A stretch of 64,000 nt of DNA from Nocardiopsis sp. YSL2. Lineage in GTDB: Bacteria > Actinomycetota > Actinomycetes > Streptosporangiales > Streptosporangiaceae. Below the pieces are notes generated by a model, which was not told the DNA's origin, ran no database searches, and was given only the letters and a program-made list of their open reading frames with translations. The translations under genes and the position numbers were made by a program. This document shows positions 10,723 to 44,793 of this stretch, in pieces. Numbering within the stretch: the stretch's first letter is position 1; each line of letters opens with the position of its first letter. The stretch is taken from assembly GCF_030555055.1 (NCBI RefSeq), contig NZ_JAMOAO010000001.1:2542001-2606000 (forward strand), given 5' to 3'.

Positions 10723-11532
10723 TCAGGACACGGACGCGTGGCGCCTTCCCGGAAGCGTCCGCTCCGGTCCGCCGGTCGGCGGACCCGCACCCACCGGACG
10801 CGGGATGACCTCCAGAACACGGTCGAGCACCCTGGCCGTGACCTCCGGTTCGTAGAAGGAGAAATGGCCCCCCTCGTACATCTCCCAGCGGAAGCCACCG
10901 GTCGTCTCCAGGCTCCACAGGGGAATGCGCCGGGTCACCACGACCGGATCGTCGGCCGCCCCGACGGCGAGGACGGGCACCGCGGTCTCGGTCTCGGGGC
11001 GCGTGTACGTCTCCATCGCCTCCAGGTCGGCCCGCACCGCCGCCAGGATCGGACCGACCAGTTCCTCGCGCTCGGCCAGGCGCGTGGACACGCCCCCGAT
11101 CATCACCAGGTGCTCCAGGAGTTCGGCGTCCGTGCGGCGGTGCGCGAACGGTGCCGTGTCGGGGAAGCAGGGTGGCTGCCTGGCCGAGACCACGAGCAGC
11201 CGCGGCGGACGTCCGAGCGCCTCCAGCGCCCGCGCCAGCGCGTATCCCAGGACGCTGCCGAAGCTGTGGCCGACGATCACGGTGGGGAGGTCGCCGTGCC
11301 CGGACAGCTCCTCCACGAGCCCCGCGACCATCGGTTCCACCCGGCGGAGCGGCTCCTCGGACAGCCGGGCGCCGTGGCCGGGCAGCTGCGCGACGAGCAG
11401 CTCCACGTCGTCGGGTATCAGGGGGCGCCAGGTGGCGAAGGCGGCCGGCCATCCCCCCGCGTGGGGCAACGCCACCACACGCCCCCGGCTCGGTCGGTCG
11501 TCTCGGCCTATGGGTATCAACCAGTTCGACAT
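10723..11532 (-). CDS. Type II (editing) thioesterase
   Basis: 269 residues, alpha/beta-hydrolase of the GrsT/RifR family. It starts MSNWLIPIGRDDRPSRGRVV, then VALPHAGG. The catalytic Ser90 is in VIVGHSFGSVLGY, the acid is about D194-D195 in GAADDPV, and His223 is in EGGHFSFYEP. Stand-alone enzymes of this family clear misprimed or stalled acyl groups from carrier proteins of NRPS and PKS lines. It starts 5 bases after the HDAC-family gene ends and is the last gene of the biosynthetic operon. Because the assembly line ends in an AOS domain and has no TE of its own, this is its only thioesterase. Confidence 0.92.
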   Translation of the reverse strand: MSNWLIPIGRDDRPSRGRVVALPHAGGWPAAFATWRPLIPDDVELLVAQLPGHGARLSEEPLRRVEPMVAGLVEELSGHGDLPTVIVGHSFGSVLGYALARALEALGRPPRLLVVSARQPPCFPDTAPFAHRRTDAELLEHLVMIGGVSTRLAEREELVGPILAAVRADLEAMETYTRPETETAVPVLAVGAADDPVVVTRRIPLWSLETTGGFRWEMYEGGHFSFYEPEVTARVLDRVLEVIPRPVGAGPPTGGPERTLPGRRHASVS

Positions 11533-11537
11533 GGTCC

Positions 11538-12635
11538 TCACACCATCAGCGGGTGGTGCCCGCACAGGAAGTCGATCACACGTTTCTGGTGGGGTTGGAG
11601 GCGCTGCCCGGGCAGGTGGTCGAGGGAGTGGCGGAAGGGGTCCTCGGGCGGCGGCATCCCCGCGATGGCGCTCGCCGTGCCCAGCACCAGCATGGGCTGG
11701 TACCAGGGGGAGTAGCCGCCCTCGTGCACGAACACACAGCGCCCGCCGCACAGCTCCGCCGCGAGTTCGCACACCCCCGTGGTCAGGGCGTGGAAGGTCA
11801 GGCTGGTGCACAGCATGCGGCCCATCGGGTCGTGTCCGCTCGCGTCCACCCCCGCGGCCACCAGGATGATCTCCGGACGGAACGCGCGCGCCGCGGGTAC
11901 CACCACGCGCGTGAACGCGGCCAGGTAGGCGTCGTGGCCCGACCCCGGGGGCAGCGGGACGTTGAGGGTGCTGCCCTCTCCGGCCCCGGCACCTGTCTCG
12001 GTGATCGTCCCGGACCCCGGCGGGAAGAGCCCGTCCTGGTGGATCGAGACGTACAGGACGTCCGGGTCCTCGTGGAAGGCCTTCTGGACACCGTTGCCGT
12101 GGTGGACGTCCCAGTCGAGCACCATCACCCTGCGCAGGCCCTGCTCCTGAGCGGTCCGGGCCCCGACGGCGACGTTGTTGAACAGGCACAGGGCCATGGC
12201 GCGGTCCGGCTCGGCGTGATGACCCGGCGGCCTGACCAGGCAATAGGCCCTTTCGTGTCCGCCCGAGACCACGTCGCGCACCGCCTCCGCGCACGCTCCG
12301 GCGGCGAGTCGCGCCGCTCGCGCGCTGTGGTAGTTCACGTGGGCGTACACCCCGGCGTCGCCCCCTCCGGCCGCGGACGCCTCCTCGACACGGGAGACGT
12401 GCCGCGCCGTGTGCACCAGCTCCAGCTCGCGGTCAGAGGCGGGCCCGGGGGTCAGGCAGTCGAAGGCGTCCAGGACCCCCGCGGCTCTGACCAGTCCCTC
12501 CGCGCGGCGCAGATCGGGGTCCACGGCGTGCTGCCGCAGCGGCTCGACCCACGGACCGACCGGGACGTAGCCCGAACCCGGCCCGGGGTCGTGCCAGTGG
12601 CAGAGCTCATGGCTGTACCACGCGAAAGCGGACAT
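11538..12635 (-). CDS. HDAC-family zinc amidohydrolase (class II deacetylase / acetylpolyamine hydrolase type)
   Basis: 365 residues from the ATG at 12633-12635. All catalytic groups are present: RPPGHHAEPD (H139/H140 dyad), LDWDVHHGNG (zinc ligands D176 and H178), AAGVDASGHDP (zinc ligand D264) and FVHEGGY (transition-state Tyr308). This is a full-length, apparently active member. Bacterial relatives hydrolyse acetylated polyamines or other N-acyl amines. Stop-to-start spacing of 1 base to the upstream unknown gene and 5 bases to the downstream thioesterase places it in the biosynthetic operon. Since the line starts with an N-formyltransferase domain, removal of an N-formyl or N-acyl mask from the product or an intermediate is an attractive role, by inference. 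Self-resistance is the alternative. Confidence 0.9.
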   Translation of the reverse strand: MSAFAWYSHELCHWHDPGPGSGYVPVGPWVEPLRQHAVDPDLRRAEGLVRAAGVLDAFDCLTPGPASDRELELVHTARHVSRVEEASAAGGGDAGVYAHVNYHSARAARLAAGACAEAVRDVVSGGHERAYCLVRPPGHHAEPDRAMALCLFNNVAVGARTAQEQGLRRVMVLDWDVHHGNGVQKAFHEDPDVLYVSIHQDGLFPPGSGTITETGAGAGEGSTLNVPLPPGSGHDAYLAAFTRVVVPAARAFRPEIILVAAGVDASGHDPMGRMLCTSLTFHALTTGVCELAAELCGGRCVFVHEGGYSPWYQPMLVLGTASAIAGMPPPEDPFRHSLDHLPGQRLQPHQKRVIDFLCGHHPLMV

Positions 12636-12636
12636 C

Positions 12637-12942
12637 TCAGTTGCTTCCCCTCGTGACGACGGTGAGTCCGCCCGCCTCGGCGACCCGCGCGCGGTGGTGT
12701 TCGCGCTCGCCCTCGGGGACACGCTTGGTGTCCAGGATCGTCTCCAGCCAGCCGAGGACGCGTTCGACCTCCTCCTGTGTCAGGACGCGCCCCTCCGCCT
12801 CCTTCTCCAGGTCCCGGACGCGGCGGGCGGGTTCGATGACGCCCCTGTCATAGGCCTCTCCGTCGGGGCCGTCGTTGCGGGTGCACGCGATCGCCTTCAG
12901 TACCGCGCCGAAGAACGCCGCGGTGGTGGTGGCCTCACTCAT
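12637..12942 (-). CDS. Small protein of unknown function in the biosynthetic operon
   Basis: 101 residues from the ATG at 12940-12942, preceded by GGAAAGGGACGG. It is predicted largely helical: MSEATTTAAFFGAVLKAIAC, then charged helices with DLEKEAEGRVLTQEEVERVL and VPEGEREHHRARVAEAGG. There is no signal peptide, no membrane helix, one Cys and no motif I recognise. Its stop lies 1 base from the start of the HDAC-family gene, so the two are translationally coupled and may work together. It could be a carrier, adaptor or immunity protein. None of these can be shown from sequence. Confidence 0.7.
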   Translation of the reverse strand: MSEATTTAAFFGAVLKAIACTRNDGPDGEAYDRGVIEPARRVRDLEKEAEGRVLTQEEVERVLGWLETILDTKRVPEGEREHHRARVAEAGGLTVVTRGSN

Positions 12943-13033: not shown

Positions 13034-16000
13034 TCAGCCGATGAGGCCGAGGCGACGTCCGGCCTTCTCCAGGATCGCGGCCGCCTCCTCCAGGTCGTCG
13101 GCCGCGTGGCTGAGGTTGACGATCGTGCGCAGCCGCGGCAGCGCGCGCGGAACCGCCGGGTAGACGATCGGCTGCACGAACAGGCCGTCGGTCTGGCACA
13201 TCCGGGCCATCTCCTGGGCCTGCTCCGCGGACGAGCACAGGATCGGCACGACGGGCGAGGCGCTCTTGAGAGTGTCGAAGCCGACGGAGTGCAGGCGGTC
13301 GCGGTACCCGTCGGTGAGACGCCGCAGGCGTTCGGCCATGTCGGGGGCCGCGCCGATCACCTCGAAGGCGGCCTTGGCGGCCGCGACCTGCGCGGGAGTG
13401 ACGGCGGCGGAGAACATCCAGCCGCGCGCGTTGTTCTTGAGCGCGAAGACCAGGTCGCGGGAGCCGGCCACGTAGCCGCCGGTGCTGGGGATGGTCTTGG
13501 AGAGGGTGCCCATCTTGATGTCGACGCGCGCGGGGTCGAGTCCGAAGTGCTCGACGATGCCCCGGCCGGTGGCCCCGAGGACCCCGATGCTGTGCGCCTC
13601 GTCCACCATCACCGGCACGCCGTGCCGCTCGCACAGGTCGAGGATGCCGGGCAGGTCGGCGATGTCACCGTCCATGCTGAAGACGGCGTCGGTGACCACG
13701 AGACGGCCCGCGCCCTCGGTCCGGCGCAGGGCCCGTTCGAGGTCGCCCAGGTCGTTGTGGGCGTAGGTCACCACGTCCGCGCCGGACATGCGGTAGCCGT
13801 CCAGGATGCTCGCGTGGTTGTACACGTCGCCGATGACCACGTCGCCCGGGCCGAGCAGCGCGCCCAGGGTCGCCTGGTTGGCCATGTAACCGCTGGAGTA
13901 GACGATGGCGTCCTCGGCGCCGAGGAAGCTCGCGATCGTCAGCTCCAGCTCTCGGTGGAGGTCGAGGGTGCCCGCCAGCAGCCGGACGCCGTGGGCGCCG
14001 GTACCGAAGCGGTCCACGGCGAGGTGGGCCTGCGCGCCGATGTAGTCGTGGCCGAGCAGTCCCAGGTAACTGTACGAGGCCAGGTTGATGAACCACCGCC
14101 CGTCGAAGCGGATGCGCGGTCCCTCGGCCGCCTCGATGACGGGCTCGTAGAAGTAGTCGTCACGGGCGACGATCGTGCGGTCCTCGCCGGACAGGGCGTC
14201 GATCCGCCGGTCGAGGAAGGTCCCCTCCGGGCGGTCGGCCAGGCGTCCGGGCAGGGTGCGCCCCGGGGTCCGCGCCGGCGCCGTGAGCGTCCGCGGCGGG
14301 ACCGTCGATGCGGTCGGGGCCGTCCGCACTGGTGGGGCCGCATGGGGCCGGGGCGGCGCCGTCGGGGAGACCGGGGCGCTCCGCGCCTCGGCGGGCGCCG
14401 CGGGAACCCGGTCGGCGGCCAGGGGGCGGGGTGCGGGGGCCGCGCCGGTGGCGGGCCGGCCCGGTTCCGGTTCACGGCGGTACTGGTCCCAGGGCGGGGT
14501 GAAGCCCGCCTGCGCGGGCGGCGCCGCGGCCGGTGCGGCGGGGGCCCCGGTGTTCACCGCCGCGGGGGCGGCGGCCGGGCGCGGCGGAGCGGTCGTGAGC
14601 TCGCTCCCGGCCTCCGCCAGGTAGGCGAGCAGGTCGCGGATATCGGGCCGCTCGAAGAGGACGGCCGTGTCGATGTCGATCCCGCGGGCGCCGAGAGCCG
14701 CGCCGACCTCCACCGCCGTGATGGAGTCCAGGCCCAGTTCCAGCAGGTTGTCGTCCGGGGTGACCCCCGGCTGGTGCAGGGCGCTGGACAGGATGTCGCG
14801 CAGCGGCGCCCACAGGTCGTCGGTGGTCGGCGTGGGGGGCATTTCTTCCTCCTGGGTCGCGACCGGCGGGGTCAGGACGTAGTTGTCGGGTGGCAGGGAC
14901 AGAACGGTGTCGAGTAGGGCCAGTCCGGCGTCCACGGAGAGGACGGGCACCCCGCGCAGCGAGGCTCCGTCGGCCACGCCCTCGCCCATGCCCACCTCCC
15001 ACAGGCCCCAGGACAGGCCGTACCAGGGCAGGTGCTCGCTCCTGCGGGCGGCGGCGAAACCCTCCATGTAGGCGTTGGCGGCCGCGTAGGCGCTCTGCCC
15101 GAGGTTCCCGTGGACGGCCGCCACGGAGGAGAACAGGGCGACGAACTCCGGTGGCCCCGCGCTGAGCCCCTCGATGAGCGCGTGCACGCCGCCGACCTTG
15201 GGGTGGAGGACCTCGGCGGCCTCCCCCGGATCCAGCGAGCGGACCAGGCCGTCGCGCAGCACGCCCGCGCAGTGCAGGACGCCGTGGAAGCGCTCGGCGC
15301 CGTCCAGCAGCGCCGGATCGGACACGTCACCGGCGAGGGTGACCACCTCACAGCGTTCGGACAGCCGTCGCAGCCGCTCCGCCCGCTCGCCCTCCGCCGG
15401 AACGGTCCGCCCGACGAGGGTGAGGTGGGCGCATCCCCGCTCCGCCAGGTGTTCGGCCACATGCAGGCCGATACCGCCCATGCCCCCCGTCACCAGGAAC
15501 CGGCGCCCCCGGACCGCGCGCGGTCCGCCGACCGGGCCCGAGAGAGGTTCCACCTCGGGGCGGTGCCACACGCCGTCGCGCAGCCACAGCTCCGGTTCGG
15601 CGAAGCGCGCCTCCCGCGCGGACATCCCGGAACCGCCCGTGTCCACCAGCCGCAGCCGCGCACGGGGCTGCTCGCGGCGCAGACTCCGCACGAACCCCCA
15701 CAGCGCGGCCTGCGCGGGATCGGGGTCCGCCCCGGGGCTCCCGTGGGCTCCGTCGGTGACCACCGTCAGGGGCGGGGCGGGGCGGCGCCGCGCCAGCACC
15801 GACGCGGTCCTGAGGAGGTCCAGTACGAGGTCGCGGGCACCGTCGGGACCCGCTACGCCGGAGGGTGCGACGTACACCAGCTCGTCCGCGGTCTCCAGCG
15901 CCTCGGCGGGCACGTCCCCGTCCTGGGTCCCGGGGCCCAGGACCACCGGGGCCGTCCCCTCCGGCGGAGGCTCCGGTGTGGGCCGGACCGGAGTCCAGGC

Positions 16001-16900
16001 GATACGGGAGATCCCGTCCGTCGCCGTGACGGCCCCTCCGCCGGCGGAGCGCCCGGCGGTCGCGGGCGCGGTTCCCGCAGCCGGGGAGGGCTCGGCCGCG
16101 CGGACCGGTGCGGCGGGCCCGGGGGCGGACGCGGACGGGTCCGCCGAGGTCGTACGCAGGGTGACGCCCTCCGCCTCCAACAGCACCTCGCCCTGCTGTG
16201 AGTGGAACCGGACGCGGCCGCGCACCATCTGGGGGCTCTCGCCGATGCTCTCGACCAGCGCCCACACGCTTCCGGAGACGCGTCGGCGCACGGAGAGCGC
16301 GTGGACCGACCAGGGCAGGCAGAGTCCGCTCCGCCCGTCGTCCATCCAGCCCAGGCACTGGAACGCGGCGTCGAGCAGGGGAGGCGGGAGGAAGTGGGAG
16401 CCCACGGCCTGGTCGTCGGTGCGCAGCAGGGCGAGCACTCGCCCGGTTCCCGACCGCAGGGAGCGCACGACCTGGAAGGTGGGCCCGTAGGTGATGCCGC
16501 TGGCCCGCTGCCAGTCGCGGAAGCGGTCGAGGTCCACCGCGTCGGGGCAGCTCGCGGTGAGGGAGGCCAGATCCTCGTACTCTGGCGGCCCCAGGGGGCG
16601 GCGCACGGCGGTCGCCCGGGCGTGGTCCGTCCACTGTCCGGTGCCCGGGGGGCGGGAGCGGACCGTGCAGTCACGGCCCTCTCCCAGGGCGGTCTCCACC
16701 TCGACCCCGCCCTCGGGGACGTGGAGGGGAGCGAGCAGCCCGACGCGCTCCAACCGCCAGGAGCCGCCGGGCTCCAGAGCGTCCAGCGCGGTGAGCAGGG
16801 AGTCCATCTGCGCGGCGGCGGGCAGGACCGGCCGGCCGCCGACCACGTGGTCGGCGGCCAGCGGCTCGTCCGGCCGCACGAGGTTGCGGAAGGCGTTCAT
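13034..16900 (-). CDS. PKS protein D: DH-KR-ACP-AOS (chain-releasing alpha-oxoamine synthase)
   Basis: 1288 residues from an ATG overlapping the alkC-type stop (ATGA). There is no KS or AT: the protein supplies the second half of the last module. DH (about 1-270) has HVVGGRPVLP (H18) and LLDAAFQ. KR (about 300-650) has VTGGMGGIG, SSVAA and YAAAN. The ACP (about 690-755) has LGLDSITAVEV. An Ala/Pro-rich linker follows. From about 885 to the end lies a PLP-dependent alpha-oxoamine synthase (AONS/ALAS/SPT family) with YSSGYMANQATLGALL, VDEAHSIGVLG and the Schiff-base Lys in GTLSKTIPSTGG (about K1135). It should condense the ACP-bound acyl chain with an amino acid, losing CO2, and release an alpha-amino ketone. 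The amino-acid partner is not predictable here. Prodiginine-type OAS proteins are the closest known logic. Confidence 0.92.
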   Translation of the reverse strand: MNAFRNLVRPDEPLAADHVVGGRPVLPAAAQMDSLLTALDALEPGGSWRLERVGLLAPLHVPEGGVEVETALGEGRDCTVRSRPPGTGQWTDHARATAVRRPLGPPEYEDLASLTASCPDAVDLDRFRDWQRASGITYGPTFQVVRSLRSGTGRVLALLRTDDQAVGSHFLPPPLLDAAFQCLGWMDDGRSGLCLPWSVHALSVRRRVSGSVWALVESIGESPQMVRGRVRFHSQQGEVLLEAEGVTLRTTSADPSASAPGPAAPVRAAEPSPAAGTAPATAGRSAGGGAVTATDGISRIAWTPVRPTPEPPPEGTAPVVLGPGTQDGDVPAEALETADELVYVAPSGVAGPDGARDLVLDLLRTASVLARRRPAPPLTVVTDGAHGSPGADPDPAQAALWGFVRSLRREQPRARLRLVDTGGSGMSAREARFAEPELWLRDGVWHRPEVEPLSGPVGGPRAVRGRRFLVTGGMGGIGLHVAEHLAERGCAHLTLVGRTVPAEGERAERLRRLSERCEVVTLAGDVSDPALLDGAERFHGVLHCAGVLRDGLVRSLDPGEAAEVLHPKVGGVHALIEGLSAGPPEFVALFSSVAAVHGNLGQSAYAAANAYMEGFAAARRSEHLPWYGLSWGLWEVGMGEGVADGASLRGVPVLSVDAGLALLDTVLSLPPDNYVLTPPVATQEEEMPPTPTTDDLWAPLRDILSSALHQPGVTPDDNLLELGLDSITAVEVGAALGARGIDIDTAVLFERPDIRDLLAYLAEAGSELTTAPPRPAAAPAAVNTGAPAAPAAAPPAQAGFTPPWDQYRREPEPGRPATGAAPAPRPLAADRVPAAPAEARSAPVSPTAPPRPHAAPPVRTAPTASTVPPRTLTAPARTPGRTLPGRLADRPEGTFLDRRIDALSGEDRTIVARDDYFYEPVIEAAEGPRIRFDGRWFINLASYSYLGLLGHDYIGAQAHLAVDRFGTGAHGVRLLAGTLDLHRELELTIASFLGAEDAIVYSSGYMANQATLGALLGPGDVVIGDVYNHASILDGYRMSGADVVTYAHNDLGDLERALRRTEGAGRLVVTDAVFSMDGDIADLPGILDLCERHGVPVMVDEAHSIGVLGATGRGIVEHFGLDPARVDIKMGTLSKTIPSTGGYVAGSRDLVFALKNNARGWMFSAAVTPAQVAAAKAAFEVIGAAPDMAERLRRLTDGYRDRLHSVGFDTLKSASPVVPILCSSAEQAQEMARMCQTDGLFVQPIVYPAVPRALPRLRTIVNLSHAADDLEEAAAILEKAGRRLGLIG

Positions 16901-18018
16901 CGAAGGAGCTCGAATCTGTCGGTGGCCAACGTGAGACCGTTCACCTGGATGTCGACGGGGTGTTCGCCGGGGTAGTACTTGCGGGTCTGGACCTCCCGGA
17001 CCGGATGCGCCTTCTCCAGGTGGCGGACCTCTCCGGGGGCCAGTTCGATGTCGGAGAGCTTGAAGACCTTCGGAATGTGCCGCCCGTTCCTGCGGACGTG
17101 GTGGACGGTGTAGTCGACGGTGACCCGGTGCCTCCGGGTGTCGGTGTTCTCCACGGAGAACCTGAGGGTGACGGTGTCGCCGAGGCCGATCGCGCCCGGG
17201 CGTACCGTCAGGTCGTGCACCCTGATGTGCTCGCCCCCGGTGGTACCGAGCAGGGCCAGCGCCTCCTGGTCGCCCTTCTTGACGAGGGTGCGCAGCGCGT
17301 GTTTGACGATCCACCGCGTCTCGGGGGTCGGGCTCTCGGCGGTCCAGCGCCGTGCGGTCGCCAGGGCGGTCCCGGGGTGGTCCTTGGAGATGTCGTTGAG
17401 GTTGTTGGCGACCGACTTGCGCACGTAGTCGGAGGGGTCGCTGCGCAGGGGCTCCAGGATCTCCAGGACCGGGGCCGGGTCCTCGATGAAGAAGGGCAGC
17501 TTGCCCGACCAGGGAAGCCGGGGGCGGGTGCCCTCGCTCGCCAGCCTCCGGACGTTGTGGCTGGGGCTGAGCGCCCACTGGGCGATGCGGGCCATCGTCG
17601 TCTCCCGGTGGGCGGTGATCAGGGGGCGGATGGCGTACTCACCGGTGTGGCAGCGGGTCACCTCCTCCAGGAAGTCCAGGGACTCCTCCGGGTGGTCGAG
17701 GCCGTACTCCTCCACGTACCGGGCCACGGGCATGAGGAACCAGCTCACCGTGAACATCCCCTGCCCCTCGGGGAGCTCGTCGACCAGCGTGCTGCGGAGG
17801 ACCTCCAGTGCCTTCGGGTACTCGTCGGGCAGGCGCGAGCGCAGCCCCTCGCACAGGACCAGGACGCGGTCCTTGAGCTCCAGGTCCGGGATCCGGCGGT
17901 CGACCTCGGCCGCGTAGTCCGCCGTCTCGAAACCGGACATGACGGTCCGGATGCTGTCACCCAGGATGGTGGCGGTCTCTCCGGTGAAGTGTTTCTTCAG
18001 ACCGTATTCACTGGACAT
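16897..18018 (-). CDS. AlkC-type HEAT-repeat DNA glycosylase (likely self-resistance)
   Basis: 373 residues. The HEAT-like repeat region shows the AlkC signatures GEYAIRPLITAH, VRRLASEGTRPRLPW, DYVRKSVANNLNDISKDHP and TRWIVKHALRTLVKKG. The C-terminal about 100 residues form a beta-rich Ig-like domain (VTLRFSVENTDTRRHRVTVD), the extra domain that separates AlkC from AlkD. AlkC enzymes excise cationic alkylated bases such as 3-methyladenine from DNA. The start overlaps the PKS C stop by 11 bases and the stop overlaps the PKS D start by 4 bases, so it is translated with the assembly line. Relatives in the same superfamily (YtkR2, C10R6) protect producers of DNA-alkylating antibiotics. Self-resistance is a strong inference. 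Confidence 0.9.
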   Translation of the reverse strand: MSSEYGLKKHFTGETATILGDSIRTVMSGFETADYAAEVDRRIPDLELKDRVLVLCEGLRSRLPDEYPKALEVLRSTLVDELPEGQGMFTVSWFLMPVARYVEEYGLDHPEESLDFLEEVTRCHTGEYAIRPLITAHRETTMARIAQWALSPSHNVRRLASEGTRPRLPWSGKLPFFIEDPAPVLEILEPLRSDPSDYVRKSVANNLNDISKDHPGTALATARRWTAESPTPETRWIVKHALRTLVKKGDQEALALLGTTGGEHIRVHDLTVRPGAIGLGDTVTLRFSVENTDTRRHRVTVDYTVHHVRRNGRHIPKVFKLSDIELAPGEVRHLEKAHPVREVQTRKYYPGEHPVDIQVNGLTLATDRFELLR

Positions 18019-36000: not shown

Positions 36001-39000
36001 GCCACCAGGGCGGTGACCGTCCCCGTCTCCAACAGGAGCGTGGGCGGTAGGGCGACATCGAGCCGTTCGCCGATGTCCTGGGCCATCGACACCGACAGCA
36101 TGGAGTCCATTCCGAGCTGCTGGAGGGGCGCCTCCTGATCGATCTCCTCGACGTCGATCTCCAGCGCCCCGGCCACCCAGCCGATCACGGCCGAGGTCAG
36201 GTCGCCCCCACCGGGCGCGCCGGCCGCCCCGGATGCCCCGGGCGCCCCGTGCTGTCCGTTCGCGGTACCGGGCACCGGTCCGTGGCCGTTGGCCGCTGGG
36301 TCGACCGCGGGTACCGGGCGGGGCGCGGCGCGTCCGGTGGACGGGTCCGCCCCGGCGCCCCCGTCCGGCGGCGCGGCCGCGAGCCGCTTCCAGGTCATCT
36401 CGACCACCTCGGCGACCGGGCCGGACTCGTCCGAGACCACCAGGCTCGCGGTCACCGTCTCCCCGCCCGCGGCGACGCGCTCCCGGCGCGCGTACACCCG
36501 CGCCGCTCCCCGGAGGGGGCCGAGGACGCTGAGTGAACGCACCGAGAAGGGGACGTACAGACCGCGCGCCCCGCACGCGAGGAGGGCGACCTGGAAGGCG
36601 CCGTCCAGCAGGTGCGGATCGACCGGGCCCTGTGAGGATCCGCCCTCCAGGACGCCGAACGCCTCACCCGGCAGGGAGGAGGCCGACCGCACACACCGGT
36701 ACCCGGGGCCGTACTCCAGCCCCGCTCGCGCGAGGCCCTCGTACATCGCCGCCACGTCGACCGGAAGGGCGCCCGCGGAGGGCCCCTCCTCCAACGAGGG
36801 GGCTTCGTCCGTGCCGACGCGCGCCTCGCAGACCAGGGCGCCCGTGTCGTCGCGGAACAGGAGCCTGCCCTCCTCGCGGGCCCCGCGCAGCGCGACAGGG
36901 TCGATGACGGGGGCGCGGAACACCACGTCGGTCAGCCGGAACTCGTTCCTTCCCAGGAGCTCCGCCGCGCGGAACGGGTAGCCGGCGGCCGGGAGCACGG
37001 GCCTGCCCCGAACGATGTGCTCGGCGGCCTCCGGCAGGTGTGACCAGGTCACCCCGGCTGTGGAGGGGGACACCGCGTCCGTGGCGGGTTCCAGCCACAG
37101 CCGCCGTTCCTCGTGCGGTGTCGACGGCAACCGGACCCGGCGGGTGCGCGAGGGGGCATCCGGCAGATCGTGCCCCCGCACGAACGAGCGCGCGGCCCGG
37201 TCCAGTTCCTCGCGGGAACCGGACTCGGCCGACCGTTCCCGCGTACCGACAGGCCCCTGGACCTGGCCGGTGTGGAGTGAGCGCGTGTCCCCGACCCCCG
37301 CCAGGAAGAGGTGGAGCTTGTCCTCCAGCTGCTCAGAGCTGGAGACGACGCAGGCCAGGCGGTGCGTCCGCCCCGGCCTGAGCCGAGCGGTCGCGCACAT
37401 GGCCGCCAGCGGGGGCCGGTGCGGGGAGTTCAGCAGTCGCAGGTAGCGTCCCGCCAGGACGCGGAGGGACCGCTCCGAGTCCGCGCTCATGACCATGAGG
37501 TGCGGGCCGTCGTCCTCCGTCCCGTCCGCTTCCTCGGTGGGCGCGGTGAGAACCGCGTGCGCGTTGACCCCGCCGAAGCCGAAACTGCTGACGCCGGCCG
37601 CCGACGGACCGCGCCACTCGTCCAGACGGGCGGACACGTACAGGGGCGAGTCCTCGAAGGCGAACCCCCGGTTGGGCGCCTCCAGGTGCGACAGCGGGGG
37701 GATCCGCCGGGCCTGGAGGGCCAGCACGGTCTTGATCAGTCCGGCGATGCCCGCGGCCGGTTCCAGGTGACCGATCGCGTTCTTGACCGACCCGATCGCG
37801 ACGGAACCGCGCGGGTGGTCGGCGAGGGCGGAGCGCAGGGACTCCAGTTCGATGATGTCGCCGAGACTCGTACCCGTCCCGTGAGCCTCCACGTAGCCGA
37901 CGCGCGACACGCCCGAGTCGGCCATGGCCCGGCGGATCACGTCCTGCTGCGCGGTGGTGCTCGGCGCGGTGAGGAAACCGGAGTGGTCGCCGGTGTGGTT
38001 GACGGCGGTGCCGTTCACCACCGCCAGGACGGGGTCCCCGTCGCGGCGGGCGTCGGCGAGTCGTTTGAGGACGACCACACCGCAGCCCTCGCCCCGCACG
38101 TAGCCGTCGGCTCCGTCGTCGAAGGTGTGGCAGGCACCCGTGGGGGAGAGCATCCCGTTGCGGCGGAACGCCAGGCTCTTGTCCGGGGTCAGGATCAGGT
38201 TGGCACCGCCGACCACGGCGGCGTCCACGATGCCCGCCCGCAGGTACGTGCGCGCCTGGTCCAGTGCGACCAGGGAGGACGAGCAGGCCGTGTCCACGGC
38301 CAGGCTCGGCCCCGACCAGCCGAACGTGTACGAGAGTCGGTTGGCGATCATGGACATGGCCGTCCCGGTGGCCGCGTGCGGATCCTCGTGCCCGGCGCTC
38401 CCCGCGAGGATCTCGGGGAAGTCGCTCGCGATGGTGCCGACGAACACCCCGGTCCCGGCTCCGAGCGAGGAGCCGTCGTGTCCGCTGGACTCCAGCGCCT
38501 CGTCCGTCACACTGAGCATGAGCCGCTGGAGCGGGTCCAGGCGCCGGGCCTCGCGGTCCCCCAGCCCGAAGCGCTCCGGGGCGAAGTCCTCGACGCCCTC
38601 GACCCAGCCCGCCCGGTGCCGCTCCATCCGCTCCCACAGGTGTCCCCACCCGCGGTTGCCGTGCGGCGCGGGACCCACGCGGTCGACTCCCTCGGCCAGG
38701 TCCGCCCAGAAGTCGTCCGGTGTCGCGGCTCCGGGGAAGCGACAGGCCATGCCGATGACGGCCAGTGCGCCCTCCGGATCGGCTTCGGAGGGGGGAGCCA
38801 CGGCGGGGGACGGGTCGGGGGGAGCGGCGACGGACGGCGCCCCGGAACGGGTGTCCGCGGCGGCCCCGGTCTCCCCGGCCGCCACGGGCGGCGGCGCGGT
38901 GTCCGCCAAGCCCACCGCCGAGGCGAGCCGTTCGGGGGTGCCGGTCGCGAAGATCAGGGGCGACCCCGCGTCGACACCGAGTTCCTCGCTGACGGTGGCC

Positions 39001-42000
39001 GCGGCGCGGACGACGTTGGCCGAATCCCCGCCGAGGTCGAAGAAGTTGTCCTCCGTGCCGAACTCCGTGTGCCCGAGGACCCGGGCGAACACCGCCGCGA
39101 TGCGTTCGGCGGCCGGGACCGCGGGAACGGTGGCGGGCTCCTCGCGGGGCGCCTGCCCGGAGGAGGCGGCCGGAGTGCCGCTGCGGATGACGGTGTCCCG
39201 CGTGGGAACGGGCAGCCGCCCCCGGGCCACCTTGCCGTTCTCGGTCAGGGGCAGGGCGTCCAGGGGGACGTAGGCGTCCGGGACCATGTAGGCGGGCAGC
39301 CGTTCGGCCAGCCACTCGTCCAGGTCCGCCCGGGCGAGCGGCGCGGTCGTGACGAGGTAGGCCGTCAGCCTCGGCGCCCCCGTTCCCTCGAAGGGGACCG
39401 CGGTCACCACGGCCGCCGACACCCCGTCCAACCTCTCCAGGTGGGCCTCGATCTCACCGGGTTCGATCCGGTTGCCGCGGACCTTGATCTGGGCGTCGGC
39501 GCGGCCGATCCACTCGACCGCCCCGTCCGGGTGCAGCCGGACGTCGTCGCCGGTCCGGTAGGCGCGCCGGCCGTCCGGGAGGGTGACGAAGACCGCCGAG
39601 GTCAGGTCCGGGCGCGAACGGTAGCCCTCGGCGAGGCCGACTCCGGTGATGTACAGGGCACCCGTGCCGCCGGAGGCCGCGGGCGCCAGGTCCTCGTCCA
39701 GGACGTGCAGCTCCAGCCCGGGCAGCGGGGCGCCCAGGGGGACGAAGCCGCGCTCCAGCTCACGTACCCGGTGGGCGGAGACCCAGATGGTGGCCTCGGT
39801 CGGGCCGTACATGTTCCACAGCTCGGTGCCCGCCCCGTGCAGCGCCTCGGCGACGGTCCGCGGCAGGGCCTCGCCACCGGAGAGCGCCACCAGGCCGGGC
39901 CGCGGGCGCCACCCGGTGTCGAGCAGCAGCCGCCACAGGCTCGGTGTCGCCTGCACCAGGTCCATGGCGTCCGCCAGGTCCGTCAGTGCCTCCGGGGAGG
40001 CGACGGTGTCCTCGTCGGCCAGTTCGACCGTGGCTCCCCGGACCAGGGGGAGGAGGAGTTCGAGGAGGGAGATGTCGAAGGCGACGGTGGTGTGGGCGAG
40101 CACCCGCGCCCCGGGGTGGAGGTCCAGGACCCCTCCGACCCCCTCCAGGAAGTTGGCCAGCGCGGCGTGACCGACCTCGACCCCCTTCGGGGTGCCGGTG
40201 GAGCCGCTCGTGAACAGGACGTAGGCCAGGGACCCCGCCTCAGCCGCCTCAGCCGCCCCAGCGACCGCCCCCGGTCTCCGACCGGGCTCCGGCACGAGCA
40301 CGGGGGTGCCCACGAAGTGCGCGTTCCCCTCCAGATCGGCCGTGGTCAGGACCAGCGCGGCATCGGAGATCTGCGCGTAGGTCCGCAGCCGCTCCTGGGG
40401 GTATCCCGGGTCCAGCGGAAGGAACGCCGCTCCCGTGCGGGCGACACCCAGCATGGACGGGACGAGTTCCGGTCCTCGACCGGTGAGCAGGGCCACGACG
40501 GACCCGGGACCGACCCCGCGTTCGACCAGCTCGTCGCGGATGGCGGCGGACCAGGACTCCAGTTCCGCGTAGGTGAGCACGGAGTCCGCGGTGCGAACGG
40601 CCACCGAGTCGGGGCTCCGCTCCCACACGCGGGCCACCAGGTCGACGACGGTACCGGGGGAGCCGGCGGGCGCGCCCTCGTCTGCGGAGGACCGCGGCGT
40701 CGGCTCCTGGGCGGCGGTCGGCGTACCGGCGCTCCCGTCCCCTCGGTCCGGTTCCGCGTACAGGCGCTCCTCGACCAGGTCGACGAAGTCCAGCGCCGCG
40801 TCGTCGGACATCGCGGTCTCGCGCGCGAACACCGCCGGGACTCCGTCGGGGGGCAGCACCAGGGCGACCTCGGTGTCGGAGGCGACCGCCGCCGGGTCCT
40901 CCCGGAAGCGCTCCAGGACCATCACCCGGGTGAACGAGGGGCCTTCGGCGCCCGGTGGACGCGTGGCCAGGCCCAGCCGCACCTCCAGGTCGGTCGCGTA
41001 CAGACCCCAGCGCCGGGCCCTGTCCAGCTCCCGTTCGGTACGGCCGGGCTCGTCCGCGTCGAAGCGGATCGGCACACGGGTGGTGACCAGCCCGTGGGTC
41101 CGCTCGGCCAGGTCCTGCGCCTCCCGCGGGGACCAGCCGAAGTCGAACGCGGCGGCTCCGGCGCGCTCGGCGAGAACCCCCAGGAAGGCCTCGCGGACAC
41201 GGGCGCGGTCCTCCGCGCACATCGGGAGGAAGGCCAGTTCGAAGCGGTTGTAGTGCGACGCGTGCGCGGAGAAGTCGTCGGAGTCCAGCGGAAGGGTGCG
41301 CACGTCCGCGAGGCGGTCGCGCCACCTGTGCTCGCGGCCGCGCAATCCGGGCTGTGCGCGCTCGACCTCGTCGAGGAACCCCTCGGCCGGCGCGGGAACC
41401 GGTTCGCCCGCTCGCAGGCCCAGCCGCTGCGCCGCGCCCCGTCCGCTGAGCGTGTCGCCCTCGGTCGAGGTGAAGTCGCTCAGGACCATGTCGGCGTCGG
41501 CCGCCGCGATGCGGATCTGCGAGTCGGTCACGCTGAGCACGGTGGGGCGCGAGTACTCCTCGTCCCGGTCGAGCGTGCGGATCTGTCCGACGAAGACGGC
41601 GTCCTGGCCGGTCGCGAACGCCGGAACGCCGACCGGGTTGGGGAAGGAGCCGAAGTCCATGGCCTTGGACAGGCGTCCCGCCTCGGCGGCCGTCATCCCC
41701 GCGTGCACGACGCCGCCGCCGGCCATGCGGTCGGCGCGGGCGAAGTGGCGCCGCGTCGCGGCGCCGTCGGTGGCCACCGGCTCGGGGACGCGTCCCTCCG
41801 CCAGCACGGGGGCCATCTCCGTGAACAGGTCGATGCCGACCTGTGCGGTCTCGTAGGTCAGGGAGAGCGCGGTGGACAGGTCGCGGACCGGGAACCAGCG
41901 CTCGGCCACCACCGCTCCCGCGTCGACCTGCTCCGTCATCAGGTGCCAGGAGGCCGCGTGCCTGCGTACTCCCTCGTACAGCGCCCAGGAGGCGATGTTG

Positions 42001-42308
42001 CTGCCCGCGAACGCGGGCAGGGGGCCGTCGTGGAAGTTCAGCGCCGCGACCCGCGGCAGGGACAGGACCTCCGCGGACAGGACCCGGAAGTTGACGATGC
42101 TGAGCAGGAGGTCGAAGGGCTGTCCGGACAGGGTCTCGACCAGGTCGCCGTGCGGGTCCATGAGTTCGATGTCCCGCTCGCGGGCCCACCGTTCCACGGC
42201 GGCGTCCTCGGAGAGGATCCCCCGGATCCGGACGCCGTGGGAGAGCAGCGCCTCCGCGCAGGAGACGAGGACGCGCGTGCCGCCGATCAGGTAGCAGTCC
42301 ACGCTCAT
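33069..42308 (-). CDS. NRPS-PKS protein A: FT-A(Gly)-T-KS1-DH-ACP-KS2-AT (loading protein)
   Basis: 3079 residues, ATG overlapping the Rieske stop (ATGA). Residues 1-310 are a Met-tRNA-formyltransferase-like domain with LNFHDGPLPAF (N91, H93) and EQVDAG (D129), so catalytically intact. Residues about 320-520 match nothing I know. The A domain (about 555-1035) has LFTSGSTGTPKG, FDISLLE, NMYGPTEATIW and K1026. Its specificity residues read D-I-L-Q-L-G-M-I-W-K, one change from the glycine code. T has GGDSANV (S1096). KS1 (about 1180-1595; C1342, H1476, H1514) is AT-less. DH is at about 1750-1975 (H1764, D1902), ACP at about 2035-2110 (S2069), KS2 at about 2186-2610 (C2351) and malonyl-type AT at about 2690-3000 (HAFHS). 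The tail AAHPLVDSM is the first strand of a split DH continued on protein B. It primes the line with N-formylglycine. Confidence 0.9.
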   Translation of the reverse strand: MSVDCYLIGGTRVLVSCAEALLSHGVRIRGILSEDAAVERWARERDIELMDPHGDLVETLSGQPFDLLLSIVNFRVLSAEVLSLPRVAALNFHDGPLPAFAGSNIASWALYEGVRRHAASWHLMTEQVDAGAVVAERWFPVRDLSTALSLTYETAQVGIDLFTEMAPVLAEGRVPEPVATDGAATRRHFARADRMAGGGVVHAGMTAAEAGRLSKAMDFGSFPNPVGVPAFATGQDAVFVGQIRTLDRDEEYSRPTVLSVTDSQIRIAAADADMVLSDFTSTEGDTLSGRGAAQRLGLRAGEPVPAPAEGFLDEVERAQPGLRGREHRWRDRLADVRTLPLDSDDFSAHASHYNRFELAFLPMCAEDRARVREAFLGVLAERAGAAAFDFGWSPREAQDLAERTHGLVTTRVPIRFDADEPGRTERELDRARRWGLYATDLEVRLGLATRPPGAEGPSFTRVMVLERFREDPAAVASDTEVALVLPPDGVPAVFARETAMSDDAALDFVDLVEERLYAEPDRGDGSAGTPTAAQEPTPRSSADEGAPAGSPGTVVDLVARVWERSPDSVAVRTADSVLTYAELESWSAAIRDELVERGVGPGSVVALLTGRGPELVPSMLGVARTGAAFLPLDPGYPQERLRTYAQISDAALVLTTADLEGNAHFVGTPVLVPEPGRRPGAVAGAAEAAEAGSLAYVLFTSGSTGTPKGVEVGHAALANFLEGVGGVLDLHPGARVLAHTTVAFDISLLELLLPLVRGATVELADEDTVASPEALTDLADAMDLVQATPSLWRLLLDTGWRPRPGLVALSGGEALPRTVAEALHGAGTELWNMYGPTEATIWVSAHRVRELERGFVPLGAPLPGLELHVLDEDLAPAASGGTGALYITGVGLAEGYRSRPDLTSAVFVTLPDGRRAYRTGDDVRLHPDGAVEWIGRADAQIKVRGNRIEPGEIEAHLERLDGVSAAVVTAVPFEGTGAPRLTAYLVTTAPLARADLDEWLAERLPAYMVPDAYVPLDALPLTENGKVARGRLPVPTRDTVIRSGTPAASSGQAPREEPATVPAVPAAERIAAVFARVLGHTEFGTEDNFFDLGGDSANVVRAAATVSEELGVDAGSPLIFATGTPERLASAVGLADTAPPPVAAGETGAAADTRSGAPSVAAPPDPSPAVAPPSEADPEGALAVIGMACRFPGAATPDDFWADLAEGVDRVGPAPHGNRGWGHLWERMERHRAGWVEGVEDFAPERFGLGDREARRLDPLQRLMLSVTDEALESSGHDGSSLGAGTGVFVGTIASDFPEILAGSAGHEDPHAATGTAMSMIANRLSYTFGWSGPSLAVDTACSSSLVALDQARTYLRAGIVDAAVVGGANLILTPDKSLAFRRNGMLSPTGACHTFDDGADGYVRGEGCGVVVLKRLADARRDGDPVLAVVNGTAVNHTGDHSGFLTAPSTTAQQDVIRRAMADSGVSRVGYVEAHGTGTSLGDIIELESLRSALADHPRGSVAIGSVKNAIGHLEPAAGIAGLIKTVLALQARRIPPLSHLEAPNRGFAFEDSPLYVSARLDEWRGPSAAGVSSFGFGGVNAHAVLTAPTEEADGTEDDGPHLMVMSADSERSLRVLAGRYLRLLNSPHRPPLAAMCATARLRPGRTHRLACVVSSSEQLEDKLHLFLAGVGDTRSLHTGQVQGPVGTRERSAESGSREELDRAARSFVRGHDLPDAPSRTRRVRLPSTPHEERRLWLEPATDAVSPSTAGVTWSHLPEAAEHIVRGRPVLPAAGYPFRAAELLGRNEFRLTDVVFRAPVIDPVALRGAREEGRLLFRDDTGALVCEARVGTDEAPSLEEGPSAGALPVDVAAMYEGLARAGLEYGPGYRCVRSASSLPGEAFGVLEGGSSQGPVDPHLLDGAFQVALLACGARGLYVPFSVRSLSVLGPLRGAARVYARRERVAAGGETVTASLVVSDESGPVAEVVEMTWKRLAAAPPDGGAGADPSTGRAAPRPVPAVDPAANGHGPVPGTANGQHGAPGASGAAGAPGGGDLTSAVIGWVAGALEIDVEEIDQEAPLQQLGMDSMLSVSMAQDIGERLDVALPPTLLLETGTVTALVAELRDRYGVTSAPGSAAPAPSAPARPEPAGAPAAPPRDAVPSARTPSPAPSPPPAPSPAVGAPPAGAAAEDRGDDGDDGDDLHDIAVIGIDGVFPGASDMDELWRVLAGGEDHVREVPADRWDLEEYYSTDQEPGSVYLREAGFVREWDEFDPAFFRISPSDARWMDPQQRHLIQSVWRTLEDAGPAGARRDLTVGVFVGASYQHYRDQVVGDVVPTAAALGNHNAILANRVSHFLDLRGPSMTIDTLCSSSLVALHQAVRSIRGGECDQAVVAGVHMGLSPQYFQLGSRLRSFSPSGRSRAFDAAADGFVPGEGVVTLLVKPLGRALRDGDRVHAVIRGTAVNHGGRSSGLTVPNGTAQRDVISAALRDAGVDAGTVTMVEAHGTGTPLGDPIEVEGLTEAFRAHTDRRQFCAIGSVKSNIGHLEPAAGLAGLAKVVLAMRHRTIPATLHLDHPNPHISFESGPFYPVGESVAWEPPAGVPRRAGLSAFGMGGVNAHVVVEEPPVLPDRTSDLPQQAHLLKVTASTEEALRRIAGDYDDHLADLPDGGFADFVRTANVGRTDHRHRAVIAVTDRESARKGLRAVASGEVAVTAVRNRSVPTAFVFTGQGSQHWGMGRALYAAEPVYREAIDECEELLGGHVSVPLREVLFGDDRALLDRTGFAQVAIVSTQVALTRLLRGWGVVPQVAIGHSLGELSAAWACGVFGLGDLLRLTAVRARLMQARPSQGSMAAVTGPVEETVRLLGEFPEVEVASFNSADHVTVTGPSGQVARLVEGLGARRARLLNVSHAFHSAHMEGAVGPFAEVLAQTPMRVPGVPLVNGLTGRWHTEESVTDPGTWAAQVRRPVRFREGVEAVRAFGVGHFWEVGPQPHLTPHVRATVGQAGAGWYTTLRRNHPEQRSLYQSVAAYLNAGVGRLDWDALHADKGGRTVTIPGYPFVRQNLSAEPLRGRRVPERPEAAAHPLVDSMDEERRGAL
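33301..34259 (-). repeat. AT-coding direct repeat, copy 2 (959 bp)
   Basis: This copy is identical in every line I compared to 18291-19249. It encodes the AT of KS2 in protein A. The identity stops abruptly inside flanking linker sequence at both ends, as expected for gene conversion or a very recent segment copy. Confidence 0.9.
34462..35339 (-). repeat. KS repeat, copy 3 (KS2)
   Basis: Nearly identical to 26333-27210 (KS4), with a divergent patch near 34600-34680. It shares the sequence bordering the AT copy with the KS6 region of protein C. Confidence 0.75.
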
Positions 42309-43465
42309 ACTCCGGCCTCCGTGTCACGCGTGTGGCTGAGGACCCAGGCGTCGATCTGCGCCACGACCTCCTCGTCCAGGGACAGCTGTCCCGGACTCCA
42401 CATGGGGTTGGACAGGCCGCGGTGGGTGCGCTCGCACAGCTCCCAGTCCTCGTAGTTGGCCTTGTCCCAGAGCGCGAAGACGGGCTCGTGGGAGAAGCTC
42501 TCCTTGGCCGTCTCGGCCGGGTGGAACAGCCAGAAGTGGCGCACGACGCAGGAGCCGGGGCTCTCGGGCCAGACCCACTGCATCATCACGTAGTCGCTGG
42601 TCATTCCGAAGAGCAGGTTCGGCAGGATGGTGATCCAGTTGACCTTGCGGCGGTCCTCCGGCGGTACGAGCGGCATGGGCGCGCGATCGCTCCGGCCGGT
42701 CGTGGAGATGGAGTTGTACCCCTCGCGCAGCATCTGCCAGGCCCCGACGATGTCGTCGCCCTTGAGGTCGTAGGTGCCCGCGTCGTCGAAGTCGGTGACC
42801 TTGTGCAGATCCTTGTGGGCGGTGGGAAAGTGGAGGCTCTCGTTGACGTTGTGCGCGACGAGCTTCCAGTTGGAGGCCACCGGGTAGTCCTTGTACTGGA
42901 CGCACCGCAGGTCGGCCAGCTCGTAGGCGTTGGCGAACCGGTCGAACTCGCCCAGGGCCTCGTCCAGGTCCGGTGGATCCTCCGCGAAGCAGACGAAGAC
43001 GACGCCGTGGCGGATCTCGGTGCTCACCCGGAGCAGGCCGTTCTTCTCCTTGTCGAAGAAGTGGTCGAGATAGGTGCCGTTCAGCGACTTGAGCCCGCCA
43101 TTGCGGTTGTACACCCAGCAGTGGTAGATGCACACGAGGCTCTGCCGCTTGCCCACGGCCTCCTCCACCAGCTTGTACCCGCGGTGGCGGCAGTAGTTGT
43201 GGTACGCCTGGATCCCCTCGTCACCGCGCAGCAGGAGGATGGACCCGCTGCCGATGTTCAACGTGGTGAAGCACCCGGGCTCGGGGAGCCGGGAGACGTG
43301 GTCCACCGGTAGCCAGCGGCGGCCGTAGATGTTCCGCATCTCGCGGAGGAACTGCTCCTCGCCGGTGTAGAACTCGTGCGACTGGCCGACACCACCGGTG
43401 TCGAAGTACTCGCGTTCCTCGTTCTGCTCACTGATGAGGTCGAACATGCTGGATGCTTCGGACAT
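42305..43465 (-). CDS. Rieske [2Fe-2S] oxygenase, ring-hydroxylase alpha-subunit type
   Basis: 386 residues. The Rieske cluster ligands are C92-x-H94 (YCRHRGY) and C112-x2-H115 (VCIYHCW). The mononuclear iron site follows as NVNESLHFPTAH (H212, H217) after NWK. The fold and length match ring-hydroxylating oxygenase alpha subunits and biosynthetic Rieske enzymes that catalyse hydroxylation or oxidative cyclisation, as in prodiginine pathways. No ferredoxin or reductase gene is next to it, so it must borrow electrons from elsewhere. It lies 89 bases after the flavoenzyme gene and its stop overlaps the PKS A start (ATGA). It is therefore part of the operon and probably tailors the released or carrier-bound product. 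Confidence 0.92.
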   Translation of the reverse strand: MSEASSMFDLISEQNEEREYFDTGGVGQSHEFYTGEEQFLREMRNIYGRRWLPVDHVSRLPEPGCFTTLNIGSGSILLLRGDEGIQAYHNYCRHRGYKLVEEAVGKRQSLVCIYHCWVYNRNGGLKSLNGTYLDHFFDKEKNGLLRVSTEIRHGVVFVCFAEDPPDLDEALGEFDRFANAYELADLRCVQYKDYPVASNWKLVAHNVNESLHFPTAHKDLHKVTDFDDAGTYDLKGDDIVGAWQMLREGYNSISTTGRSDRAPMPLVPPEDRRKVNWITILPNLLFGMTSDYVMMQWVWPESPGSCVVRHFWLFHPAETAKESFSHEPVFALWDKANYEDWELCERTHRGLSNPMWSPGQLSLDEEVVAQIDAWVLSHTRDTEAGV

Positions 43466-43554
43466 GACGGCTCCCAGGGGTGGGGACGGGGGTCGACGCG
43501 CGAGGGGATCCGACCGGCGCGGCGGGTCCGGACGGTGTGGTGGAGGGGGACCGC

Positions 43555-44793
43555 TCAGGCGGTCGGGTCGTAGATGCGCTCCTCCTCGGGAACGCCGACC
43601 TCGTCGTAGAGCTTCTGAAGGCCCTCGGGGGAGAAGATCTCGTCACCGTGGACGGTGCCCGCGATGATGCCGAGCATGGTGTCGGTCCACTTCTGGCTCT
43701 GGCCGATCGCGCCGAGGGTCGCCCGGAAGAAGGGCGGCAGGTCCAGTTCGGCGAGGGTGCAGGTGAAGTCGTACACCGACTCGCTCTCCTCGTCGCGGGC
43801 GGTCGCGTAGTCGGCGAGCGCCTCCTCCATGGGGCGCTCGCCGGAGAGCCCCTCGTGCAGCCGGTCGGCGAGCATCTCGGCGTGCAGGAAGGCGTCGGCC
43901 ATGCCCCAACCGGTCAGGGGGTCCTTGTGGTAGCCGGCGTCCCCCACCAGCGCCCACCCGGGGCCGTACGCGGTCCGGTAGTAGTTGTCGGGGTTGCGCA
44001 TCGGCCGGAAGGGCTCCACCCGCTCGCCCTTCTCCCGCAGCTCCTTGCCCATCTCGGGGACCACGTCGTCGAAGGTGGCCAGGAACTGCTCCTCGGGATC
44101 CTGGCGGAACTCCTTGAGGTGGGAGCGGTTGCAGATCACGGCCAGCATGGTCAGGTTGTCGTTGGTCGGCCAGGCTCCGATCCACCGGCGGTTGTGGCCG
44201 GTCTTGTGGTGCAGGCCCCAGTCCAGGCCGCTGTAGTAGGAGTAGTAGATGAAGTTGGCGGAGGGGCGCACGTTGTAGTTCTGGGCGCCCACCCGGCGGG
44301 CGACGGTCGAGTGGAAACCGTCCGCTCCGACGACGACCTTCGCGCGCAGGTCGCGCTCGGGGCCCTTGTTCTCGCTCCCCCGGACGCCGACCACCCGGCC
44401 GTCGTCGAAGAGCAGGTCGGAGACGCTGAAGTTCTCCACCACCTCCGCACCGGCCTTGCGCGCGCCGGTGACGAGGGTGTCGTCGAGCAGGGTCCGGCGC
44501 GGGCAGTACACCGCGTCGACGCCGTTGACCGGTTCGGCGAAACCGTTCAGCTCGATGCCCTGGAAGGAGAAGTGCATAGCGCGGATCGCCGGGGTTCCGG
44601 CGTCGACGATGGCGTCGAGCAGGCCCCAGTCCTTGAGCCTGAGCAGGGCGGTCTGGTGCAGGTAGTGGGTGGAGACGGTGTCGCTGGGGAACGAGGCGCG
44701 GTCGAGGACCAGGACGCGGTATCCCTGTCGTGCGAGCAGCATCGCGGTGGGGGAGCCGGCGCAGCGCGCGCCGACGACGATGACGTCGTACAT
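43555..44793 (-). CDS. FAD-dependent oxidoreductase (group A monooxygenase / geranylgeranyl-reductase-like)
   Basis: 412 residues from the ATG at 44791-44793, with AGGTGA just upstream. The longer frame adds no conserved sequence. The FAD-binding N-terminus is MYDVIVVGARCAGSPTAMLL, with the GxRxxGS form of the dinucleotide motif common in this family. The second FAD motif is WALVGDAGYHKDPLTGWGMA (GD at the flavin ribityl). No FxDxxxW-type halogenase motif (WxWxIP) is seen, so hydroxylation, epoxidation or desaturation is more likely than halogenation. It is the first gene of the biosynthetic operon, about 155 bases behind a candidate promoter. The substrate is presumably the polyketide, by inference. 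Confidence 0.88.
   Translation of the reverse strand: MYDVIVVGARCAGSPTAMLLARQGYRVLVLDRASFPSDTVSTHYLHQTALLRLKDWGLLDAIVDAGTPAIRAMHFSFQGIELNGFAEPVNGVDAVYCPRRTLLDDTLVTGARKAGAEVVENFSVSDLLFDDGRVVGVRGSENKGPERDLRAKVVVGADGFHSTVARRVGAQNYNVRPSANFIYYSYYSGLDWGLHHKTGHNRRWIGAWPTNDNLTMLAVICNRSHLKEFRQDPEEQFLATFDDVVPEMGKELREKGERVEPFRPMRNPDNYYRTAYGPGWALVGDAGYHKDPLTGWGMADAFLHAEMLADRLHEGLSGERPMEEALADYATARDEESESVYDFTCTLAELDLPPFFRATLGAIGQSQKWTDTMLGIIAGTVHGDEIFSPEGLQKLYDEVGVPEEERIYDPTA

Follow-up and report, generated by a model that had tools for sequence, protein, structure and literature searches.

An actinobacterial assembly line with a formyltransferase start, an alpha-oxoamine synthase end and an AlkC-type glycosylase gene in its operon: a possible source of a DNA-damaging polyketide alkaloid

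How would a polyketide chain that starts on a formylated glycine and leaves its assembly line through an alpha-oxoamine synthase (AOS) be finished, and why would the operon responsible carry the gene of a DNA glycosylase? These questions are raised by a hybrid nonribosomal peptide synthetase-polyketide synthase (PKS) operon in a stretch of 64,000 nucleotides from the soil bacterium Nocardiopsis sp. YSL2 (positions 2,542,001-2,606,000 of contig 1, NZ_JAMOAO010000001.1, in a genome of 6.42 Mb), referred to here as the window. The reading that we favour, with a probability of about one half, is that the operon encodes a cryptic assembly line for a small DNA-damaging polyketide alkaloid, from which a protecting formyl group would be removed and to which an AlkC-type glycosylase would make the producer resistant.

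The genes form a single operon on the minus strand, running from window position 44892 to 8725 (all coordinates below are on that strand unless they refer to the flanks), in the order FAD-dependent oxidoreductase, Rieske oxygenase, PKS1, PKS2, PKS3, AlkC, a protein ending in the AOS domain, a 101-residue protein, an amidohydrolase of the histone deacetylase (HDAC) fold, a thioesterase (TE) and a major facilitator superfamily (MFS) exporter. At the PKS1/PKS2, PKS2/PKS3, PKS3/AlkC and AlkC/AOS junctions the reading frames share a few bases. A preliminary description of this DNA had set the cluster at 10723..44793, of which the first figure is the 3' end of the thioesterase gene, with the cluster in fact continuing to the exporter gene; it made no mention of the AlkC and HDAC-like genes.

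The start of the line lies in PKS1 (33069..42308), read from Pfam and motif searches as formyltransferase (FT)-linker-adenylation (A)-carrier (T), followed by ketosynthase (KS)1, dehydratase (DH)1, acyl carrier protein (ACP)1, KS2 and acyltransferase (AT)2. The FT domain (41349..42308; Pfam Formyl_trans_N, 6.4e-11) is related to ArnA (3.1e-12 against solved structures), and its Asn-His-Asp set, N91, H93 and D129, is invariant in 6/6 aligned sequences. The A domain (39219..40646; Pfam AMP-binding, 2.1e-61) has the pocket D-I-L-Q-L-G-M-I-W, read by hand from an alignment with LgrA, which we take to be a glycine code (1AMU numbering). A carrier domain with a GGDSA motif (38889..39101; Pfam and motif) completes an FT-A(Gly)-T start as the preliminary description had claimed. 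The interval between FT and A (40674-41350, ~220 residues) has no Pfam match, yet is well conserved in six orthologues.

At the other end stands a DH6-ketoreductase (KR)6-ACP6-AOS protein (13034..16900; Pfam and motif searches), the ATG of which overlaps the TGA of AlkC. Its AOS domain (13037..14209; Pfam Aminotran_1_2, 8.9e-51) is fused behind the ACP, the arrangement found in PKSs that release their chain through an AOS, and the terminal AOS of the preliminary description is thereby upheld. Among solved structures the domain comes closest to a KBL/AONS enzyme (3.4e-88) and to serine palmitoyltransferase (6e-85), and H132, D203, H206, T235 and K238, comprising the pyridoxal phosphate lysine and its partners, are invariant in the five sequences aligned. 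An attempt to read the amino acid substrate from residues gave no discrimination, the Asn usual in the family being Tyr46 here.

Conservation was assessed by retrieving neighbourhoods from other genomes and searching them with the window genes (tblastn). The gene set occurs in seven genomes, those of the window, N. halotolerans (G100), N. quinghaiensis (G109), N. terrae (G123), Nonomuraea pusilla (G167), Streptomyces albidoflavus NRRL B-1271 (G345) and a member of another family (G591), and FT/PKS1, the Rieske and flavin enzymes, AlkC, AOS, the 101-residue protein, the HDAC-fold protein, the thioesterase and the exporter are each present in all seven clusters; in G100 the matches are partial for PKS1 (residues 1-438, the contig ending before the A domain) and for the flavoenzyme (78 residues, at the end of the locus). 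FT-to-AOS contiguity with the full domain order could be read in two of the seven, the window and G591, the other five being broken by contig ends inside the PKS genes. In G591 the domain order is equal by Pfam on one contig, at identities of ~54% for PKS1 and 48% for PKS2.

Among 394 genomes drawn evenly from the class, AOS matches at E < 1e-200 were confined to the window and G591, with weaker ones (1e-112 to 1e-90) in seven genomes, and FT matches (E up to 1e-25) occurred in five genomes, namely the window, G591, G400, G587 and G633. No AOS match was found in the 60-80 kb around the FT loci of the last three; conversely, two of the weaker AOS matches, G197 and G479, sit in PKS frames and are presumably RedL-like, and no FT match lies in the 20 kb around them. 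A further scan of genome contigs with the AOS alignment gave five loci from 110 stretches matching its two patterns, among which G591 is not recognisable and from which the window's own genome was possibly left out. As far as sequence comparison goes, FT and AOS are genuinely paired, and their pairing is conserved.

No characterised precedent for this pairing was found in the open-access literature, so far as it was searched, in agreement with the preliminary description, which knew of no pathway joining the two steps; every part is familiar, unlike their combination. As in the cluster, a PKS is loaded through FT-A(Gly)-T in the conglobatin and oxazolomycin systems (CongA, OzmO; PMC4504003), but they end in a TE and use an ATPase with an SGGKDS motif, whereas the cluster ends in an AOS and is without that ATPase. 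An oxazolomycin-like locus in G400 (contig C1, ~1,065,800), which combines FT and A with numerous KS and KR domains and SGGKDS, has an FT just 31% identical to that of the cluster. In the prodiginine enzymes RedL and RedN/PigH, as in the cluster, the AOS is fused to a preceding carrier domain or module; unlike them, the cluster has a six-KS line that begins with FT-A-T, a last module with both KR and DH, and the AlkC and HDAC-like genes. In the sphinganine PKS SgaAB of P. fluorescens MYb115 an AOS likewise releases the PKS chain, but this is a two-gene iterative system making long-chain bases, for which FT is not mentioned in the accessible text (PMC12134224).

It is probable that the family had been glimpsed before. 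A survey of AOS proteins, including PigH and the S. griseoviridis proteins B6VRQ8 and B6VRS3, tabulated in 2013 a protein of Streptomyces albus J1074, D6B3S9, as KR-CP-AOS in a type I PKS (T1PKS) cluster labelled 'Gly-Mal-Mal' (PMC3870968). Since J1074 goes under the name S. albidoflavus in PMC12199506, and since S. albidoflavus NRRL B-1271 carries the cluster with DH-KR-ACP-AOS, D6B3S9 is probably an orthologue of the cluster AOS protein, recorded at that time without a product. The T1PKS-NRPS clusters 1 and 3 of J1074 were given the product 'Unknown' in 2014 (PMC3992020), and in the accessible parts of the J1074 genome paper (PMC3937824) and of the 2025 S. albidoflavus paper (PMC12199506) no product attributable to the cluster was found.

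Between these ends the domain order was established by slice-wise Pfam scans and motif searches, with some motifs read directly from the translation. PKS2 (24208..33072), which starts with a GTG overlapping the PKS1 stop, and PKS3 (18008..24211) complete the line, the whole order being FT-A-T-KS1-DH1-ACP1-KS2-AT2, DH2-KR2-ACP2-KS3-DH3-ACP3-KS4-KR4-ACP4, KS5-DH5-ACP5-KS6-AT6 and DH6-KR6-ACP6-AOS. Domains located individually include KS1 (37683..38762), DH1 (36354..37076, in a module without KR), ACP1 (35997..36182), KS2 (34647..35753), AT2 (33303..34193), KS3 (29392..30489) and KS4 (26515..27597). Of the 'six KS modules rich in DH' claimed in the preliminary description, the six complete KS (spread over three proteins) and five DH are there, but only three KR and two AT accompany them. 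Cys-His-His is present in every KS (in five by motif search, the second His of KS1 being read in the translation, KNAIGHLEP). HxxxGxxxxP occurs in each of the window's five DH, and the Asp motif was found by search in DH1, DH2 and DH6 and read from the translation in DH3 (VDAALQ); in DH5, the first motif of which is altered in G591, D-S-V-T-I replaces DxxxQ. The nucleotide and Tyr motifs are present in all three KR (KR2, KR4 and KR6), and both ATs have GHSLG and HAFHS, presumably the mark of a malonyl-type AT.

The polyene that had been predicted from these domains is not secured, for modules 1, 3 and 5 have DH without KR, module 4 has KR without DH, and the first motif of DH6 deviates from HxxxGxxxxP, with the His retained, in four of the seven clusters (G123, G167, G345 and G591). 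Four of the six modules are without an AT, as in trans-AT PKSs. No discrete trans-AT was found in the cluster, in which only AT2 and AT6 lie of the eight AT matches in the genome; of the other six, one belongs to a FabD-sized frame of 371 residues and five to large frames or fragments at 4.14-4.15 and 4.39 Mb. The G591 cluster also has two ATs. With just two cis ATs, the ATs would have to serve across modules, or FabD may help. The AT2 and AT6 regions (33300-34230 and 18240-19230) are identical in DNA over 930 of 930 aligned bases, and KS2, KS4 and KS6 are mutually 63-75% identical, against 43-51% for other KS pairs; this may reflect recent gene conversion inside the assembly line or else a risk in the assembly.

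The gene that bears most directly on the second question, that of AlkC (16897..18018), overlaps both of its neighbours. Its product matches solved AlkC structures (PDB 5vi0, 8e-69; 5vhv, 8.5e-69) over residues 7-371, the full length, as against just 1e-9 for AlkD2 and similar proteins, and on this match an AlkD identity considered for the HEAT protein was replaced by AlkC. The catalytic residues of PfAlkC are E121, R152, E156, W164 and D203, and all are conserved in the alignment of the cluster AlkC. In 7/7 clusters the gene stands between PKS3 and the AOS gene, its stop and the AOS start overlapping as ATGA each time, and its own start overlaps the PKS3 stop in six, with a 2 bp gap in G109. 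DNA glycosylase genes in genotoxin clusters have precedents in YtkR2, AlkZ, TxnU2/U4 and HedH4 (PMC8626424, PMC9040887, PMC8934636, PMC9570651), and on the strength of this published self-resistance the AlkC gene may be read as the sign of a DNA-alkylating product. The published self-resistance glycosylases are AlkD-like, AlkZ-like or related, and in the accessible parts of those papers AlkC figures as comparison enzyme or reference only, whereas here it is AlkC itself that lies between two PKS genes. Its place inside the operon thus suggests a product that attacks DNA, with AlkC as self-resistance.

The fate of the formyl group has to be sought elsewhere than in the known FT-A-T systems. Oxazole formation in the manner of conglobatin is ruled out by the lack of the OzmP/CongE-type ATPase, the SGGKDS motif of which, present in the oxazolomycin-like control G400, was found in none of the six frames of the window, of G591 (662001-701000) or of locus L100, so that the formyl group must have another fate. 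The HDAC-fold zinc amidohydrolase (11538..12722; Pfam 3.2e-84), a proposed deformylase or deacylase, has PDB matches that include bacterial HDAH, propanil hydrolase and HDAC6, and its GHH, DWDVHH, GVDA and GGY motifs, which we take to be the zinc ligands, paired His and Tyr, are present in seven aligned sequences. As such an enzyme accompanies all seven clusters, deprotection would be the simplest fate of the formyl group, a guess from fold and co-occurrence, and the retained N-formyl amine of the preliminary description is accordingly less than secure.

Put together, these readings give the following scheme. To judge from domains, residues and pocket, FT-A-T would load glycine and formylate its amine, and the six KS would extend the chain with malonate, modules 2 and 6 (DH and KR) being capable of forming double bonds, although DH6 is apparently degraded in some relatives. 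From the last ACP the acyl chain would move to the AOS fused behind it, for decarboxylative condensation with Gly, Ala or Ser, and the AOS, by analogy with its family, would release an alpha-amino ketone. The formyl group would most likely be a temporary protecting group, taken off by the HDAC-fold amidohydrolase; the Rieske and flavin enzymes may oxidise the product, the MFS pump would export it, and the operon AlkC, if homology and position are a guide, would excise the product's DNA adducts and so protect the producer.

Against this scheme it may be held that the FT-AOS line is as proposed, but that AlkC has hitch-hiked into the operon as a gene of general repair, and that the product leaves DNA untouched. 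AlkC is widespread in the order, with matches at E <= 1e-30 in 91 of 345 genomes; with one match listed per genome, the cluster copy could be the sole general one. In neighbourhoods of 10-60 kb from the 25 best of the 90 other matching genomes, AlkC is accompanied by the cluster in four and stands without it in 21. In a tree of 28 sequences (the window, these 25, G345 and G591), the seven cluster AlkCs group with four orphans (92/82, not starred), apart from 17 others, and a clade of the seven cluster copies alone is rejected (p-AU 0.007). The orphans, at L004 (G088), L007 (G112), L005 (G114) and L008 (G118), nest inside the cluster group, and their genomes are absent from the HDAC matches of the family. 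Loss of the assembly line with AlkC kept would explain them; as an alternative, a resident AlkC gene may have been captured by the cluster. AlkC without a cluster and orphans among the cluster copies do make a general repair gene possible, but the invariant slot with its recurrent ATGA overlap speaks for a tie to the product, and we consider the hitch-hiker possible at rather low odds. Much the same low odds would be given to a product that keeps its formyl group, as a formamide or in a ring such as a DH1-assisted pyrrole, with the HDAC-like enzyme cutting some other amide or protecting the target. DH1 has its motifs in a KR-less module, which leaves room for a ring-closing role, and enzymes of this fold hydrolyse several kinds of amide, as the names among the PDB matches indicate; the missing ATPase and the constant presence of an amidohydrolase, which fits deprotection, tell against it.

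Decidedly improbable is an ordinary pyrrole or pyrazine chemistry of the prodiginine kind, in which the AOS product simply cyclises and its activity is nothing unusual. Other PKS-linked AOS genes do exist in actinobacteria (G197 and G479), and the apparent degradation of DH6 in four clusters would suit it. The 4-keto-pyrroline of RedL requires a beta-keto group, however, which should be gone given the KR of module 6, and no FT was found in the 20 kb around those other AOS genes. That the cluster is an assembly artefact or dead can hardly be credited: identical AT2 and AT6 are a classic assembly risk, but G591, with equal order and diverged sequence on one contig, contradicts this reading, and the PKS frames are open with most catalytic motifs intact. 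Several further observations weigh on the other side of the scheme that we favour, with deprotection and AlkC self-resistance. The numbers of DH, KR and AT are at odds with a collinear line, and the first DH6 motif deviates in four of the seven clusters. NCBIfam scores of the AOS lie under the cut-offs of single-substrate families, so that its amino acid stays Gly, Ala or Ser. The family has 18 additional genomes with relatives of the HDAC-fold protein, at identities of 42-52%. SGGKDS is also missing from 60 kb at each of the FT loci G587 and G633, so that its absence is not special to the cluster. Finally, no product tied to the cluster is named in the literature searched, most subscription papers lying outside that search.

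The Rieske non-haem iron oxygenase (42305..43465; Pfam Rieske 1.4e-13, Ring_hydroxyl_A 2.7e-40), with CxH/CxxH conserved across six aligned sequences, and the FAD-dependent oxidoreductase of the halogenase/geranylgeranyl-reductase superfamily (43555..44892; FAD_binding_3 6.6e-27; PDB 3e1t 'Halogenase', 1.8e-25) are the Rieske enzyme and flavoenzyme already described for the operon. Flavin-dependent halogenases carry a WxWxI motif, which is absent from the six flavoenzyme sequences aligned, and a halogenase reading is ruled out. The 101-residue protein (12637..12942) is predicted to be all-helical (pLDDT 86); no Pfam match (with a slightly longer frame) and no PHROG match was found, and its best PDB fold match has an E of 1.7. 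The free thioesterase (10723..11553; Pfam Thioesterase 1.9e-32) may be of type II, with an editing role, and the exporter (8725..10323) is QepA/LfrA-like by homology. The cluster adjoins the origin region with gyrA, gyrB, dnaN and dnaA (window 46496-62863), an IS110-type transposase gene (46496-47770) lying between cluster and origin genes; an origin-proximal site would be unusual for a secondary-metabolite cluster.

What the locus may mean reaches beyond a single strain. Two rare assembly-line steps, found together only in this cluster family, are joined in a way that would give a polyketide with nitrogen at either end. It is tempting, if rather doubtful, to see here genotoxic diamines of polyketide origin as a new class, with a formyl-protected start, an amino-ketone end, HDAC-fold deprotection and AlkC self-resistance; within the literature accessible to us, this would be the first case of AlkC acting against a natural product. 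AlkC would offer a gene-level clue to the biological target, and the natural role of AlkC-type glycosylases would become directly testable. Orthologous clusters are carried by strains available from collections, N. halotolerans DSM 44410, N. terrae KCTC 19431, Nonomuraea pusilla DSM 43357 and S. albidoflavus NRRL B-1271, and probably also by the widely used Streptomyces albus J1074.

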